Positions 22,127 through 30,512 of a stretch of DNA of 64,000 nucleotides are shown piece by piece. The notes beneath the pieces are model-generated. The model worked only from the letters and a program-made list of their open reading frames with translations, was not told the DNA's origin and did not search any database. Source of the DNA: Acidobacteriota bacterium. GTDB lineage: Bacteria > Acidobacteriota > Vicinamibacteria > Vicinamibacterales > JAKQTR01. The position numbers and the translations under genes are program-made. Each line of letters opens with the position of its first letter. Positions within the stretch are counted from its first letter, which is position 1. The stretch covers positions 62,001-126,000 of the forward strand of contig JAPKZO010000028.1 of NCBI GenBank assembly GCA_026393755.1. Direction: 5' to 3'.

Positions 22127-22188
22127 CACTCCCGGAGTGATTATGGAAGCGGCACGAGATCCGCGCCGAGATAATCACTCCGGGAGTG
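22127..22188. repeat. 18-bp inverted repeat between the HAD phosphatase and PanE-like genes
   Basis: CACTCCCGGAGTGATTAT (22127-22144) is repeated as its exact reverse complement at 22171-22188, with 26 nt between. Each arm also contains its own small dyad (CACTCCCGGAGTG). The right arm overlaps the stop codon of the phosphatase gene. It could be an attenuating or mRNA-stabilising stem, or an operator; there is no T-run. It separates the histidine genes from the three unrelated downstream genes. Confidence 0.8.
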
Positions 22189-22855
22189 ATTGACCCGCAT
22201 CCAGCGAGACGATGGGCCAGCCGTGAGCCTCGGCATGCGCCCGCAGCCTCTCGTCCGGGTGCACGGCGCATGGGTTGGTCACCTTCTGCAGAAGCGGAAG
22301 ATCGTTGATGGAATCGGTGTAGAACCAGCTTTCGTCGTAATCGGACAATCGCTCACCGCGGGCCGCCAGCCACTCGTCGAGCCTGGTCACCTTGCCTTCC
22401 CGGAAGCATGGCGTTCCCCGCTCCCGTCCGGTGAACCGCCCGTCAACCTCCTCGAGGTCGGTCGCCAGGAGATTCGTCACGCCGAGCGCGTCGGCAATGG
22501 GCCCGGTCACAAACCGGTTTGTCGCCGTGATGATCACCTCGACATCGTCGCGGTAGCGTTCGATGAGCCCCCTGGCGCCCGGGCGGATCATGGGCAGCAC
22601 TTTCGACGTCATGAACTGCGCGTGCCACAGGTCGAGTTGGCTGCGCGGATGGCTCGCCAGCGGCTCCAGCTGGAAGGCGAGATATTCGCGGAGATCGAGG
22701 ACGCCCGCCTTGTACCGCTCGTAGAACTCGAGGTTGCGCGCCTCGTACGTCGCGCGATCGAACACGCCCACGTCAATGAGCGTCTGACCCCACTCATAGT
22801 CGCTGTCACCGGCGAGCAGCGTGTCGTCGAGATCGAACAGGGCCAGACGCTTCAT
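22175..22855 (-). CDS. HAD-IB phosphatase, probable histidinol-phosphate phosphatase
   Basis: The 226-residue HAD enzyme has motif I as FDLDDTLLAGDSDYEWG (nucleophile D8, acid D10), motif II as IITATN, and motif III/IV as GKVTRLDEW and FYTDSINDLPLL. This pattern resembles the HAD-IB subfamily whose Pseudomonas member PA0335 I recall as a histidinol-phosphatase. The gene lies 9 bp behind hisA at the end of the his operon. The hisB here is a dehydratase only, and no HisN or PHP-type HisK phosphatase is present. It therefore probably supplies the missing histidinol-phosphate step. A phosphoserine-phosphatase role is the main alternative. Confidence 0.8.
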   Translation of the reverse strand: MKRLALFDLDDTLLAGDSDYEWGQTLIDVGVFDRATYEARNLEFYERYKAGVLDLREYLAFQLEPLASHPRSQLDLWHAQFMTSKVLPMIRPGARGLIERYRDDVEVIITATNRFVTGPIADALGVTNLLATDLEEVDGRFTGRERGTPCFREGKVTRLDEWLAARGERLSDYDESWFYTDSINDLPLLQKVTNPCAVHPDERLRAHAEAHGWPIVSLDAGQSLPE

Positions 22856-22864
22856 GCAACTCCG

Positions 22865-23557
22865 TCATGGTTCGCTTCGCGCGCGTAACGGCAGGCGGCC
22901 GGTATAGATGGCCATGCCGACGACCGCGTCGATGCCAAGCGCCTCGAGTGCGGCGATTTCTTCCGCGGTCGTGATGCCGCCCGCAGCGCTGATCGGTCGG
23001 CTGGTCGCCGCGTGGACCCGAGCGACGGCAGCCATGTCGATTCCTTCCATCATGCCTTCGGTTTCGACATGCGTATAGAGAAACCCGCCGCAGTAAGGCT
23101 CCAGCTGGCGCGCGGCCTCCTCGGGACTGACCGTAGTCTGCTTCTGCCAGCCGCGCACGACGACCCGGCCGCCGATGCTGTCAATGGCCGCAATGACGCG
23201 CTCGGCACCCACCGCGCTTGCCAGCGCCCCGGCGAAATCTGTATCGATGCCCGCCGGACCGAAGAACGCCGACCCGACGATCACCTCCCGAGCGCCGCCG
23301 TCAAGCCATCGCTGTGCGCGTGCGATGTCGCGCACGCCGCCGCCAACCCGACACGCAACCCGGGCGCAGATCTGCCGTGCGAGCGTCTCATTGGTGCCAG
23401 TCGCCAATGCCCTGTCAAGATCGATGAGTTGCACCCGCCGATAGCCCGCAAAGCGATCCACCCATGCGAACACGTCATCAAAGGCGAGCGCCAGGCGTTT
23501 GCCCTGCACGAGCTGGACGACCTGTCCCCCGCGCAGGTCAATGGACGGAATCAGCAT
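22865..23557 (-). CDS. hisA: ProFAR isomerase
   Basis: This 230-residue (beta/alpha)8 enzyme isomerises ProFAR to PRFAR, the fourth step of histidine synthesis. The catalytic Asp is in the N-terminal IPSIDLRGGQVVQL. Phosphate-binding loops are VGGGVRDIA and ISAAGGITTAEEI, with VIAAIDSIGG holding the mid-barrel acid. The conserved VIVGSAFF segment is also present. Length is slightly shorter than usual, with a clipped C-terminus. It lies 9 bp downstream of hisF. Confidence 0.95.
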   Translation of the reverse strand: MLIPSIDLRGGQVVQLVQGKRLALAFDDVFAWVDRFAGYRRVQLIDLDRALATGTNETLARQICARVACRVGGGVRDIARAQRWLDGGAREVIVGSAFFGPAGIDTDFAGALASAVGAERVIAAIDSIGGRVVVRGWQKQTTVSPEEAARQLEPYCGGFLYTHVETEGMMEGIDMAAVARVHAATSRPISAAGGITTAEEIAALEALGIDAVVGMAIYTGRLPLRARSEP

Positions 23558-23566
23558 CGCTTTCTC

Positions 23567-24343
23567 TCAGCGGTCGATCGCCCCGGACATCTGGCGCACA
23601 GGCACGCCGTGCTGCCCGAGCCAGGTCTTGAGGTCGCGAACCGCGTGCTCCCCGAAGTGAAAGATCGAAGCGGCCAGCGCGGCATCGGCGCGGCCGTCCG
23701 TGAAGACCTCGAGGAAATGTTCGAACGATCCCGCCCCACCCGACGCGATGACCGGAATCGAGACGGCATCCGCCACCGCGGCGCTGAGATCGCAGTCGAA
23801 ACCCTGACGTGTGCCGTCACGGTCGATCGACGTCAACAAGAGTTCGCCCGCCCCGCGTGCTGCTGCTTCGCGCGCCCACCCGACCGCGTCGCGTGTGGTC
23901 GCGCTCTGCCCGCTGCGCGAGTACACGCGAAAGCTCTGGGCTTCTCGCTTCGCGTCGATGGCCACGACGACCGCCTGGCTGCCGTACCGTCTGGCCAGCG
24001 TCGTAAGGAGCCGTGGGTCGGCCAGTGCCGCGCTATTGAGGCTGACCTTGTCCGCCCCGGCGTCGATCATAGCCGCGGCGTCAGCTTCAGTCTTGATGCC
24101 CCCCCCGACAGCCAGCGGAATGAACAACTCGGCCGCCACCGCACGGATCGTTTCCGCCATGGCACGGCGGCTCTCGATCGTTGCCGTGACATCGAGGACG
24201 ACCAGCTCGTCGATCCCCTCGACGTTGTAGCGGCGGGCCAGCACCGCTGGATCACCTGCTCGCGTGAGGCCCGCAAACTGAACGCCCTTCACGACCACGC
24301 CGTCACGGACGTCGAGGCAGGCAATGATGCGCCTGGACAGCAT
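23567..24343 (-). CDS. hisF: imidazole glycerol-phosphate synthase, cyclase subunit
   Basis: The protein has 258 residues from ATG 24343, beginning [24 protein letters not shown]11 and the later Asp in [15 protein letters not shown] are the catalytic acids. [11 protein letters not shown] and [12 protein letters not shown] bind the substrate phosphates. With HisH it converts PRFAR plus ammonia into IGP and AICAR, the ammonia passing through the barrel. A longer upstream reading covers hisH in another frame and is rejected. The spacing to hisH is 2 bp, fitting a stoichiometric complex. Confidence 0.97.
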
Positions 24344-24345
24344 CG

Positions 24346-24987
24346 CTATGCCCCCTCTGCAATGCGAAGGAAGTTGGCGAGCAGGGTCAGGCCGACGTCG
24401 CCGGACTTCTCCGGATGGAACTGCACGCCGAACACGCGGTCGTGTTCGACTGCACTCGCAAAGACCGCGCCATGAACAGTCGTCGCGATTGCGGCGCCGG
24501 TGACCGGCACGGCGTACGAATGCGTGAAGTACGCCTGCGCCCCATCGGTCAGACCGGTGAGCAACGCCGATGGCCTCACGAGGCGAACGTCGTTCCATCC
24601 GACATGAGGGATCTTTGTTGTCTCGCCGAAGGCGTGCACGGGACTTCGCTCTGTATCGATTTCGTCGAGACGCACGCTGCGACCCTGAAACAGGCCAAGG
24701 CCCGGCAGGTCAGGCGCCTCACTGCTTCCCTCGAACAACCACTGCTGGCCCAGGCAGATCCCGAGCAGCGCGCGTCCTGATGCGACCGATGCCATCACGG
24801 CCGCGCGCCACGAATTGTCGAGCGCGGCGGTCGCCGCGAAGTGTCCCACCCCAGGAATCACAACGGCGGCGGCCTCGTGCAGTTCAGCTGGCGCCAACGG
24901 GATGAACACCTCGGCGCCAAGGGCACGAAGCGCCTTGTGCACCGACGTCAGGTTGCCGGCCCCATAATCCACGAGCGCGATGCGCAT
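24346..24987 (-). CDS. hisH: imidazole glycerol-phosphate synthase, glutaminase subunit
   Basis: This 213-residue class I glutamine amidotransferase has its nucleophile Cys in [12 protein letters not shown]. The catalytic His-Glu pair is in [12 protein letters not shown]. The oxyanion-forming region is [10 protein letters not shown]. It hydrolyses glutamine and delivers ammonia to HisF. The N-terminus [16 protein letters not shown] is canonical. It lies 2 bp from both hisB and hisF, so the three are tightly coupled. Confidence 0.97.
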
Positions 24988-24989
24988 GG

Positions 24990-25577
24990 CTACAGCAATC
25001 CCTTCGTGCTCGGCAGCATCCGCCCCAATTGCCGGTCGCGACTGCAGGCTACGCGCAGGGCCCGCGCGAAGGCCTTGAAGACGGCCTCGACGCGGTGATG
25101 GCTCGATCGGCCGTACAGCACCTTGAGGTGGACGTTGGCCCGTGCGCCAACGGCGAAGCCTTCGAAGAAGTCGTGCACAAGTTCGGCCTGCAGGTCGCCG
25201 ACCATTCTGGCGCGCAGACCGAGGTCGACCACCGCGTGCGGCCGGCCGGACAGGTCAATGGCCGCAACGGCCAGCGTCTCGTCCATCGGCATCACGAAGT
25301 AGCCGGTCCGGTTGATGCCGCGACGCGCGCCGAGCGCCTGCGACACGGCCTCGCCAAAGGCGATGCCCGCGTCCTCCACGGTATGGTGCTGGTCAACGTC
25401 CAGGTCGCCCTGCGCCCGGACCTCCAGATTGAACGCCCCGTGGCGGGCGACCAGCTCGAGCATGTGATCAAGGAATCGAATGCCGGTCGAGACCATGTAG
25501 CGGCCTTGCCCCTCCAGCCCGATAGCGATCCAGATGCGGGTCTCGGCCGTGTGTCTCTCGGCTACGCCCTTGCGCAC
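24990..25577 (-). CDS. hisB: imidazoleglycerol-phosphate dehydratase (monofunctional)
   Basis: The enzyme has 195 residues when begun at GTG 25577, overlapping the hisC stop by 16 nt; the family pattern [16 protein letters not shown] then follows as expected. Metal-binding His clusters are [27 protein letters not shown] and [17 protein letters not shown]. It removes water from IGP to give imidazole acetol phosphate. There is no N-terminal HAD phosphatase domain, unlike the enterobacterial bifunctional HisB, so histidinol-phosphate must be cleaved by another protein. A longer start at 25652 runs into hisC and is unlikely. Confidence 0.95.
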
Positions 25578-26605
25578 AGGTCCTCCAGTTCGGCCAGGCA
25601 CGCGGTCGTGTGCTCGACCAAGCCGGCCGTGATGCGAATGCATCCGCCGCACCCGGCGATATTGGAGCGATCCCGCACATACACACGGCGCGCAGCCAGC
25701 GCTTCAACCAGCGCGGGCGCGCCCGGGCCCACGCGAACCAGGACGAAGTTCGCCTGGCTCTTCCAGTACTCGAGGCCGAGCCGCTCGCACGCTTCATAGA
25801 TGCGCCGGCGGGATGCCTCAACCTGCGCGACGTACCACTTCACGTAGTCGCCGTCGTCGATGGCGGCCCGCGTAGCTGCCAGCGCGAACACGTTTACGCT
25901 GAACGGCAGCGTCACGCTGCGAACGCGACCGATAGCCTGGCGCGCTCCCACCAGATACCCGGCACGCACGGCTGCCAGCCCGTACGCCTTCGCGAATGTC
26001 CGGCCCAGAAGCACGTTCGGGCACGAGACAAGCTCGTCAAGGAAGCTGGTGCCCGCGAACTCGATATACGCCTCGTCGAGAAACACAATGGCGCCGGGGG
26101 GCAACCGAGTCGCCACCGCTCGCACCTCTTCGGCTGTCACCAGCACCCCCGAGGGGTTGGCCGGGCTCGCGATGAAGACGACCCGCGTGGCTGGCCCGAT
26201 GGTGTTCAGCGTCTCCGCAAGCGGAAACGAAAAGTCCGGCCGCGGCCCGACACGGATGACGCGCGCACCGACCACCGAGGCGCTGGCCGCAAACAGCGCG
26301 TACGCGGGCTCGACAACGATGGCGTCGGCCCGTTGACCGTCATCCAGGCGCTGCAGCCAGGCCACCGCCGTCGAGTAGATGCCTTCGTCGAGACCGTTGG
26401 TCAGAAAGAACCGGTTCTCGTCAATCCCCAGCCACCGTGCGCACGCTCGGAGGGTGGCTCCGTAGTCCGGGTAGAACGCGGCCTCGCCGGCGGTCACGGC
26501 CCGCATCGCGTTCAGCACGCGCGGCGAGCAACCCGCGGTGTTCTCGTTCAGGTGCAGGCGCAATCCAGGGCCCCGCTCGGGCGCTCGTTCGTATAGATCG
26601 CTCAT
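25562..26605 (-). CDS. hisC: histidinol-phosphate aminotransferase
   Basis: This 347-residue fold-type I PLP enzyme begins [12 protein letters not shown] at ATG 26605, overlapping the hisD stop (ATGA). [14 protein letters not shown] is the typical substrate-arm region. The cofactor Lys is in [16 protein letters not shown], with [11 protein letters not shown] supplying the PLP-contacting Asp and Tyr. It transfers an amino group from glutamate to imidazole acetol phosphate. It may also serve aromatic amino acids, as many HisC proteins do. Confidence 0.95.
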
Positions 26606-27850: not shown

Positions 27851-28738
27851 TCACTCGACGATCTTGTTCAGCGGGTATTCAACGATGCCTTCGGCCCTGG
27901 CGGCCTTGAGGCGCGGGATCAGATCGCGCACGGTCGGCTCCTCGACGATGGTGTTCAACGCGGCCCACTCGGCGTCGGCCAGCGGCGAGATCGTGGGCCG
28001 ACGAAGAGCGGGCAGCAGGGCCAGCACGTTCGGCAGATCGACCAGGCGAGCGTTGAGCATCAGGCCTACGCGGCCCTGGGCGGCGATCGCGGCGCGCAGC
28101 AGCATCGCGATGTTCTCAAGCTTGGTCCGCTTCCACTGGTCCCGCCACGCCGTCTCGTTCGCCACAAACTGAGTGGCCGATTCCATCACCGTGTCGATGA
28201 TGCTCAGCCGGTTCGCGCGCAGTGTCGATCCGGTCTCGGTGGCCTCGACAATCGCGTCGGCCAGAACCGGGGGCTTCACCTCGGTCGCGCCCCAGGAAAA
28301 TTCGACGGTGACCCGCACGCCGAGGCGGCGGAAGTAGTCCTCGGTCACTCGCACGAGTTCGGTGGCGACGGTGGCACCTTCAAGATCGGTGGGCGTCTTG
28401 AACCGCGACTCGTCGGGCACGGCCAGCACCCACTTCACCTTGCCAAAGCTCTGCTTGGCGTAGACCAGTTCGGACACTGTCTGCAGTGGCTGGCGTCCGC
28501 CGCCGGCCAGCGCCTGCTCGAACACCCAATCCCGGCCCGTCAGCCCCGCGTCGAGCACGCCGTCGCCGACATAGCGCGCCATCTCCTGCGCCCGGATGAG
28601 CATGCACTCGATTTCCGGGTCGTCGATGACCGGGAAGTACGAGCGCGGGTTCACGTAGATGCTGAACCCTGCCCGCGCGAACAACTGGACGGTCGAATCC
28701 TGCAGCGACCCTTTCGGGATGCCAAGCTTCAGTTTCAT
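27851..28738 (-). CDS. hisG: ATP phosphoribosyltransferase, long form
   Basis: The enzyme has 295 residues from ATG 28738, overlapping the hisI stop (ATGA). It joins ATP and PRPP to open the histidine pathway. [20 protein letters not shown] and [10 protein letters not shown] are catalytic-core landmarks, and the PRPP-type loop is in [12 protein letters not shown]. The length implies the hexameric HisG(L) type with a C-terminal ACT-like regulatory domain (about 215-295) for histidine feedback, consistent with no hisZ in the window. Control is thus doubled, by feedback here and by attenuation upstream. Confidence 0.96.
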
Positions 28739-29088
28739 GACGCGCTCGCCTCCGCCGCCCTCTCCGTCTTGACGTCCACGCTGCGGCGGAAACAGGTCCG
28801 TTCCCCGGTGTGGCAGACGTTGCCGTCGCCAAGCCGCCGAACCAGCAGCACCACCGTGTCGTTGTCGCAATCAACGAGCAGGCGCTCGACAGCCAGTCGG
28901 TTGCCCGATGTCTCGCCCTTGGTCCAGAGCGTGTTGCGGGTCCGGCTGAAGAAAGTCGCGTAGCCGGTGTGTCTGGTGATGTCGAAGGCGGTCTCGTTCA
29001 TGAAGCCCACCATGAGAACTTCCCGGGATGTCGCGTCCTGTACGACTGCCGGAACCAGCCCTCCGAGTTTCGAATAGTTCAGTGTCAC
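28735..29088 (-). CDS. hisI: phosphoribosyl-AMP cyclohydrolase
   Basis: The product has 117 residues from GTG 29088, which follows GGAGGAG by 9 nt; a TTG at 29112 lies inside the attenuator terminator and is rejected. [32 protein letters not shown]-like order is seen, with the zinc-site motifs [13 protein letters not shown] and CHTGERTCF. It opens the purine ring of PR-AMP. The fused PR-ATP pyrophosphatase domain (HisE) of many bacteria is missing, and no separate hisE is found here. It is the first structural gene after the attenuator. Confidence 0.95.
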
Positions 29089-29104
29089 GGCGTGTGTCTC
29101 CTCC

Positions 29105-29146
29105 AAAAGCAAAACGGCCCGCCAGCGTGGTTGCCGGCGAGGCCGT
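29105..29146 (-). terminator. his operon attenuator terminator
   Basis: On the minus strand the stem pairs ACGGCC(T)CGCC (29146-29136) with GGCGGGCCGT (29123-29114), with one bulged base and a 12-nt loop. TTTTGCTTTT (29114-29105) follows, a typical intrinsic terminator tail. It sits 31 nt after the leader peptide stop and just before hisI. The minus-strand segment TCGCCGG (29140-29134), part of the 5' arm and loop, can instead pair with CTGGCGA (29198-29192) inside the leader gene to form an antiterminator. Confidence 0.85.
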
Positions 29147-29177
29147 CTGAGATCGGAAGCGTGTGTCCTGTCCTAGC

Positions 29178-29255
29178 TCATAAGCGCAGCATCGCCAGTC
29201 TGCATGTGGTGCAGTGGTGGTGGTGGTGCCGCACGGCGAGCAGGACCGTAACCAT
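29178..29255 (-). CDS. hisL: histidine leader peptide
   Basis: The 25-codon reading frame begins MVTVLLAVR, continues with five consecutive CAC His codons (residues 10-14) and ends CTTCRLAMLRL before TGA. A GGGAAG stands upstream of the ATG at 29255. Stalling at the His codons when charged His-tRNA is scarce would leave CTGGCGA (29198-29192) free to pair with the terminator arm and let transcription enter hisI. Reading through to the stop would cover CTGGCGA and allow the terminator to form. This is the classical enterobacterial design. Confidence 0.88.
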   Translation of the reverse strand: MVTVLLAVRHHHHHCTTCRLAMLRL

Positions 29256-29399
29256 GTTCAGCTTCCCTGTCACGTTAGCGGACCTTCGTGCCACTGTCAA
29301 GTCTGGTGCGCCGGCGATCGACGCCTCACGGGCGCCATTGATGTCGCCTCACGCCACCGACGTCTGCTGCGTCGCGATTGGTTGCGCCCTGACGGGTGT

Positions 29400-30461
29400 T
29401 CAGCGCTTGACGATGCCGATGTTGGCGATGGTCTCGCCCTTTGTCATCGACGGTACCGCGCGGATAAAGAGCACCTCGCCGGCGGCCGGCGCGCGAGCGT
29501 CGAGAATGACCTTCCCCACGTAGTCGGTCACGTAGCCGATCTTCATCCCGGCCTCCACCGTCATGCCGCGCTTCACGAGCGGATAGAAGATGCCCGTCTG
29601 GTCGCTGGTCACCGTCGCAATCTTCTCGATCCATACCGGGTGTTCGACAACCGCGGCCGCGCCAGGCAGCATCTTCAGATGCCGCATCACGTTGACCGAT
29701 CCGTTGACCAGCGCCGCGATGTCATCAGTCTCCGTCGTGCCGGCGTGCCCGGCCTCGGCGGTGATGGAGGGTTTGCCGCGCGTCGACGCGGTGTTCTCCA
29801 GGTAGCGCGATGCCGCGGGGTCTTTTGGTCTGTCGGCAGAGATGATGATGTGGTCGAGCCCGAATGCCAGCACGAGCTCTCTCGAAATGGCGTCCTGACT
29901 CGCGTTGCCCGTAACGGTCCAGTAGGAATACGGCCGCAGGCTCTCGTCGATGTCGCCGCCGTGCAGATCGATCAGGTGATCGCACTGGTCGACCACCTCT
30001 TTCGTCATCAGGAACGACGCCCGCTCGGTCTGCGTCCCGTCCATCTTGCCAGGGTAGTAGCGGTTCATGCTCTTGCCGTCGATCGGGTTGATGTGCGCGA
30101 TCTTCTGCTCGAACGACGCGACGTTGACCAGCGGCACCAGAATCACGGTGCCCGCGATCTCCGCCGGATTGAGCACCTGGATGAGGCGCTCGACGGCAAG
30201 GATGGAGCTGTACTCGGTGCCGTGGGCGCCGGCGACAATGGCGACCACCGGACCGGGCTTTGCCCCGTGCACAACCGCGACCGCAATGCTTGTGGCGGCG
30301 TCGACGCCGGCCGGCACCGCGATGACGCCGGTCGCCTTCTGCCCGCGTGTGGCAGAGGCGGTGCCGACCTTGATGGTCGGATGGGGGTCCGCCGCCTGGG
30401 CGGCCGGCTGCTGCCCGGGCGCCAGAGTGATCGTCAGAGCCAAGAGTGTCGTTGTCAGCAT
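29400..30461 (-). CDS. exported M14/AstE-type zinc deacylase family protein
   Basis: The protein has 353 residues with a signal peptide (MLTTTLLALTITLAPGQQ). It belongs to the succinylglutamate desuccinylase/aspartoacylase family of zinc carboxypeptidase-like enzymes. The first zinc ligands are in VAGAHGTEY (HxxE) and the third His is in LIDLHGGDID. EAGHAGTTE may hold the catalytic Glu. Family enzymes remove acyl groups from amino acids or trim amides. The exported location argues against a role in arginine catabolism; the substrate is unknown. It diverges from phoB at 30587. Confidence 0.85.
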   Translation of the reverse strand: MLTTTLLALTITLAPGQQPAAQAADPHPTIKVGTASATRGQKATGVIAVPAGVDAATSIAVAVVHGAKPGPVVAIVAGAHGTEYSSILAVERLIQVLNPAEIAGTVILVPLVNVASFEQKIAHINPIDGKSMNRYYPGKMDGTQTERASFLMTKEVVDQCDHLIDLHGGDIDESLRPYSYWTVTGNASQDAISRELVLAFGLDHIIISADRPKDPAASRYLENTASTRGKPSITAEAGHAGTTETDDIAALVNGSVNVMRHLKMLPGAAAVVEHPVWIEKIATVTSDQTGIFYPLVKRGMTVEAGMKIGYVTDYVGKVILDARAPAAGEVLFIRAVPSMTKGETIANIGIVKR

Positions 30462-30488
30462 GATGCGCTCCCAGATAGAAGGACGTCG

Positions 30489-30512
30489 CGGGCGCGCCAT
30501 GTCGCGCGCCCC
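30489..30512. repeat. degenerate copy of the GC-palindrome repeat
   Basis: CGGGCGCGCCATGTCGCGCG followed by CCCC keeps the GGGGCGCG...CGCGCCCG arms of the repeat family but has a changed centre. It lies in the divergent region between the AstE-like gene and phoB. Confidence 0.55.

Follow-up and report, generated by a model that had tools for sequence, protein, structure and literature searches.

A stretch of 64,000 nt of DNA (hereafter the window), from a 4.4-Mb genome in 42 contigs, carries on its minus strand what is very probably a ribosome-mediated transcription attenuator for histidine. Judged by sequence comparison, the probability of this reading is roughly 0.93. All of the parts of a classic attenuator occur here, namely a leader ORF with clustered codons, a terminator, a mutually exclusive antiterminator and his genes downstream. 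The original prediction had named a 25-codon leader with five tandem His codons, a terminator with a U-tract, and a 7-bp alternative pairing of CTGGCGA with TCGCCGG, all in the correct order, in a probable acidobacterium. Each of these parts was recovered in that order, the pairing with one G-U wobble, and the promoter and region 1 described below are additional to them. The assignment of the host likewise held, its relatives being Vicinamibacterales, and the identity as a histidine attenuator was supported by family matches to the downstream his genes and by retention of leader and terminator in nearly all relatives.

The leader region and his operon of the window

From 29300 down to 29088, the minus strand runs TTGACA, 17 nt, TAACGT, the leader ORF, a spacer, the hairpin, the U-tract, GGAGGAG and the GTG start codon of hisI. 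The features are as follows:

29272..29300, minus strand: sigma-70-type promoter, with TTGACA at 29300-29295, a 17-nt spacer and TAACGT at 29277-29272
29178..29255, minus strand: leader ORF of 25 codons, by ORF translation MVTVLLAVRHHHHHCTTCRLAMLRL and a stop codon, with equivalents in own and relative hisI loci
29235..29239, minus strand: region 1, TCGCC, a possible partner of region 2 without a ribosome, from the window sequence
29214..29228, minus strand: five tandem His codons (CAC x5), the proposed ribosome stall site
29192..29198, minus strand: region 2, CTGGCGA, the antiterminator strand within the leader ORF, from sequence, duplex with region 3 and co-variation in relatives
29134..29140, minus strand: region 3, TCGCCGG, part of the terminator's 5' arm
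29114..29146, minus strand: GC-rich terminator hairpin, by folding
29105..29114, minus strand: U-tract TTTTGCTTTT, its first T being the last base of the hairpin
29098..29104, minus strand: Shine-Dalgarno-like GGAGGAG of hisI, from the window sequence
28735..29088, minus strand: hisI (phosphoribosyl-AMP cyclohydrolase), the first structural gene, GTG start, NCBIfam NF000768 above cut-off
27851..28738, minus strand: hisG, TIGR00070
26602..27843, minus strand: hisD, TIGR00069
25562..26710, minus strand: hisC, TIGR01141 (ORF limits; the true start may be further in)
24990..25652, minus strand: hisB dehydratase, NF002111
24346..24987, minus strand: hisH, TIGR01855
23567..24343, minus strand: hisF, TIGR00735, the match starting at residue 86 of ORF 23567-24598
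22865..23557, minus strand: hisA-like ORF, judged by eye on its translated sequence

The operon that follows the attenuator on the minus strand is therefore written hisIGDCBHF(A), with the reservation that hisC is the best family match of its ORF at a score under the curated cut-off of TIGR01141. A HAD-type phosphatase ORF, recognized by eye, lies immediately after the hisA-like ORF (22175-22855, minus strand) and could be the operon's histidinol-phosphate phosphatase. The gene upstream of the attenuator (29403-30500, minus strand) matches the TIGR02994 deacetylase family with 97 of 403 bits, far under cut-off, and is unrelated to his.

The promoter was missing from a consensus scan because the thresholds of that scan exclude TTGACA-17-TAACGT; a pattern search found one match in the window, against a shuffle mean of 0.03. 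Promoters of this type also precede the leaders of most relatives. Transcription would be expected to start at about 29265. The (CAY)5 run at 29228-29214 is the only one in the window. Downstream of it, CTGGCGA (29198-29192) and TCGCCGG (29140-29134) can form their 7 bp in a structure that excludes the terminator, and the TCGCC of region 1 can pair with the GGCGA of the antiterminator strand. The hairpin begins 31 nt after the leader ORF. Folding of the minus strand, which the original prediction had offered as a check, gave -27.1 kcal/mol for the 42-nt terminator stretch, compared with -14.7 +/- 2.6 for its shuffles, and a z of -4.0 for the entire leader.

These parts would work together in the following manner. 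Transcription would begin just upstream of the leader ORF, and a ribosome would translate the leader as RNA polymerase advances. When charged His-tRNA is scarce, the ribosome would stall at the five His codons, leaving region 2 free to pair with region 3, so that no terminator forms and hisIGDCBHF(A) is transcribed. With ample histidine, the ribosome would instead arrive at the stop codon (29180-29178) and cover region 2, whereupon regions 3 and 4 would form the terminator. Region 1 (29239-29235) may hold region 2 if the ribosome is absent. The spacing is suited to such a scheme. A translating ribosome occupies about 12 nt of RNA beyond the codon that it is reading (PMC4833913); region 2 starts at 29198, 15 nt past the end of the last His codon (29214), and would therefore be free with the ribosome halted at any of the His codons. 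The end of region 2 lies 14 nt ahead of the final stop-codon base (29178), which is why a ribosome at the stop would be predicted to cover it.

Conservation in the Vicinamibacterales and beyond

Relatives of the window's HisI in named genomes are nearly all from Acidobacteria, several of them labelled Vicinamibacterales, with Luteitalea MAGs among them. From 168 hisI loci, the 166 with at least 100 nt upstream were reduced to 121 distinct upstream regions; L045 and L106 had less than 100 nt and were left out. Also left out, at contig edges, were G021 and G099 as well as one of the two pieces of G086. No hisI match was present in 28 of the 120 relatives. A leader was counted where three or more His fell within eight codons of a short ORF lying no more than 420 nt from hisI, and a terminator where a hairpin with E <= -8 kcal/mol and a U-tract lay between the leader stop and hisI.

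By these definitions, a His-rich leader ORF precedes hisI in 117 of the 121 distinct regions. The search for poly-His leaders upstream of hisI that the original prediction had called for was positive at 89 of 90 loci in the genome set (own genome and relatives), 84 of which also have the U-tract terminator, and at 72 of 76 loci from the named collection. The leader-negative loci are L128 (which shares its upstream region with L070), L083, L107 and L108; by their record titles, L107 (Desulfobacteraceae) and L108 (Pseudovibrio), two of the four, stand outside the phylum. Terminators were found in 112 of the 117 leader loci, compared with 7/117 and 12/117 when shuffled spacers were put through the same search. 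Loss of the His codons or terminator from close relatives, which had been named beforehand as evidence against the attenuator, is thus not what was seen, leader and terminator being kept in almost all of them.

In G001, the congener of the window's genome, hisI and hisG both went unmatched, which leaves G004, a member of the window's family, as the closest genome for comparison. Its HisI is 76% identical, its leader carries the run HHQHHHH, and its terminator has a U-tract. In six genomes with reported completeness of 97-100% (G001, G017, G023, G026, G033 and G035), neither hisI nor hisG was matched; histidine synthesis may therefore have been lost in several relatives, the window's congener included.

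No U-tract terminator was found at five of the 117 leader loci, comprising four of family f10 (L054, L084, L151 and L154) and one of the window's own family, f1 (L137). The f10 loci retain a strong pairing of the leader tail with a downstream arm, and further hairpins adjoin the hisI start in place of the U-tract. Locus L137 also keeps its His leader and the pairing, and it too has extra hairpins near the hisI start. Such hairpins suggest control of translation, and the f10 leaders look like an apparent switch to it. This raises the first alternative for the window, in which the leader switch would chiefly hide or free the ribosome-binding site of hisI rather than stop polymerase. The five loci show that a leader and pairing can occur apart from a U-tract; nevertheless, a strong hairpin and U-tract stand before hisI in the window, as in 112 of the 117 loci, and the window's GGAGGAG lies outside the hairpin. 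Translation-level control is accordingly very improbable for the window, and attenuation of transcription is the preferred reading.

A second alternative is that the ORF encodes a functional His-rich peptide, for instance a metal-binding one, and that the terminator is incidental. Poly-His peptides can bind metals. The leader peptides, however, vary widely in sequence except for the His cluster and the part coding the antiterminator strand, from which come recurring C-termini such as GGPVELR and GPAGLRA, and the ORF is placed ahead of his genes and a terminator. This explanation is even less probable than the previous one. Least probable of all is a chance His run beside the ordinary terminator of an upstream gene; a same-strand gene does end near 29400, and hairpins form easily in GC-rich DNA, but a His run arose in 0 of 100 shuffles, on which ground chance was rejected, and the leader is kept at all but one of the genome-set loci.

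Pairing of the antiterminator strand was evaluated at 112 loci. Between leader tail and terminator arm the median pairing energy is -15.4 kcal/mol. Spacer pieces of matched length reach -5.5, and the tail pairs more strongly than the spacer at 107 of the 112. Simple randomization did not separate the antiterminator well at these loci. With mononucleotide shuffles, 23/112 tails passed the 5% level (median fraction as good, 0.25); with plain arm swaps, the real pair had a median rank of 0.42; and with synonymous recoding of the tail, 13/112 fell at or below 0.05 (median 0.355). Since any C-rich arm will pair with a GC-rich tail, shuffle statistics of this kind were rejected as proof of the antiterminator. 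A matched-versus-swapped test was therefore used, in which the average strength of every tail and every arm was subtracted before permutation. Own tails and arms then fit better than permuted ones by -1.61 kcal/mol (sd 0.19), and none of 5000 permutations equalled them. When the set was thinned to 32 dissimilar loci, the sole means by which relatedness was handled, the value was -2.18 kcal/mol (sd 0.40; 0/5000). With relatedness treated by thinning only, the fit is taken as probable co-variation of tail and arm.

Elsewhere in the phylum, hisG (PF01634) was present in 190 of 297 sampled genomes, and 70 hisG loci (L170-L239) from 68 genomes were picked to spread over families. In three of these, L219, L224 and L229, the match frame was not open; they were kept in the denominator of 70, with L219 having 42 nt and L229 having 471 nt upstream. 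An adjacent poly-His leader occurs at 24 of the 70 loci, all within families f23 (9/9), f34 (11/13), f37 (2/2) and f71 (2/2); none was found at the other 46 loci or in any other sampled family. Judged by eye from translations, the gene after the leader resembles hisI in f23 and f71, and hisG in f34. Of the 24 leaders, 21 are followed by a terminator with a folding energy of at most -7 kcal/mol.

Leader starts close to the promoter

Among 116 leaders, 80 have a promoter scoring at least 10 (of 14), and in 70 of those 80 the leader's start codon falls 7-11 nt past the -10 hexamer; the distances peak sharply at 9 nt. Control ORF starts reached that score in 36 of 1136 cases, 2 of the 36 at this spacing; of 5000 random positions, 118 did so, 7 of them at 7-11 nt. 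In the rest of the phylum, 15 of the 24 leaders have a promoter that scores 9 or more and lies 7-11 nt away. Shine-Dalgarno-like tetramers precede just 7 of 117 leader starts. Since transcription usually begins 6-9 nt past the -10 box, RNA 5' ends would be expected to coincide with the start codon or to lie just a few bases from it, and across the order and in parts of the phylum the leader messages are probably leaderless or nearly so, with few untranslated bases. The window is itself an exception, with 16 nt between -10 box and start codon, as is L003 with 15 nt; for these two, the prediction is a 5' UTR of about 10 nt that lacks a clear Shine-Dalgarno sequence. Near-leaderless leaders agree with the share of leaderless genes that one study gives for three Acidobacteria genomes, 9.7-19.4% by a similar criterion (PMC3160421).

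Taken as a whole, the loci form what appears to be a well-supported, phylum-level set of his attenuators with a near-leaderless twist, and it is this phylum-wide near-leaderless form that would be unexpected to a specialist. The odds slightly favor a fuller account, in which an old and widely kept Acidobacteriota regulator would operate on a leader that is leaderless or has a 0-5 nt UTR, and would have lost its terminator and switched to translational control in at least one family.

Known attenuators and related sites

Ribosome-mediated attenuation is a textbook mechanism, and his leader attenuators are known from Gammaproteobacteria. The enterobacterial hisL (RF00514, His_leader) resembles the present element in its tandem-His leader peptide, terminator and alternative antiterminator before the his operon. 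The two differ in that the first acidobacterial gene is hisI (hisG in f34) and that most of the acidobacterial relatives have a predicted near-leaderless leader start. They differ also in their Rfam matches. A scan found no family at gathering in the window and none in 40 leader loci (20 from the order, 20 from elsewhere in the phylum), with the T-box model likewise unmatched throughout, and RF00514 gave nothing at E <= 10 around the window leader; a known Rfam element was thus rejected.

Other phyla offer precedents for leader peptides that are leaderless. The polycysteine leaderless short ORFs of mycobacteria, reportedly described by Canestrari in 2020, are alike in being amino-acid-rich upstream ORFs that regulate an operon and unlike in using cysteine. 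The Sinorhizobium meliloti trpL transcript begins at the ATG of the leader ORF and undergoes classic transcription attenuation; it concerns tryptophan, trpE(G) and an alphaproteobacterium, whereas histidine control is here predicted across a phylum (PMC7298713). The description of the design as best known from Gammaproteobacteria was fair, with the qualification that it is also predicted in Firmicutes. The candidates there, from the Bacillus cereus group, Peptostreptococcaceae and Erysipelotrichales, share a His-rich leader peptide, a terminator and an antiterminator deduced by comparison, and they too lie outside RF00514; they belong to another phylum, carry runs of three to five consecutive His codons, and are presented with no mention of leaderless starts in the available portion of the paper (PMC9413887). 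No his attenuator of Acidobacteriota was found in the literature searched, and its novelty in print is likely, not proven, because older surveys lay outside that scope.

Acidobacteriota are abundant soil bacteria whose regulation is little known, and, by one survey, hardly any of the attenuators predicted in them has been assigned a function (PMC2965389). The present analysis would supply function, sensor and gene target for one attenuator set in about 90 genomes of one order and in four further families. If the near-leaderless prediction is true, the sensing ribosome has to load with no Shine-Dalgarno sequence to guide it, and nearly at the moment when the 5' end of the RNA emerges. Whether such initiation at the 5' end can pace RNA polymerase for attenuation, beyond Proteobacteria and Actinobacteria, thereby becomes testable.

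In the window's own genome (G000), the pattern TTGACA-N16-18-TANNNT with an ATG 6-12 nt on occurs 21 times (L240-L260), and the reversed-pattern control 0 times. Several of these sites start ordinary genes, which suggests wider leaderless expression. One of them, L255 (about 1540-1770; G000:C32, about 271138), is a near-leaderless Met-rich ORF, MATRLGFPRPAMMVMRMLVMRMTSVGGRIVSGL, followed by a hairpin and then by an O-acetylhomoserine sulfhydrylase-like gene (by eye), and is a possible methionine attenuator. As a general finding, the Met leader was rejected, there being no Met-rich leader at any of 16 relatives of the gene (one of which, L272, has 105 nt upstream only). Another, L244 (about 1540-1700), is a near-leaderless ORF of 34 aa, and the start of the next gene resembles, by eye, adenylylsulfate reductase subunit beta.
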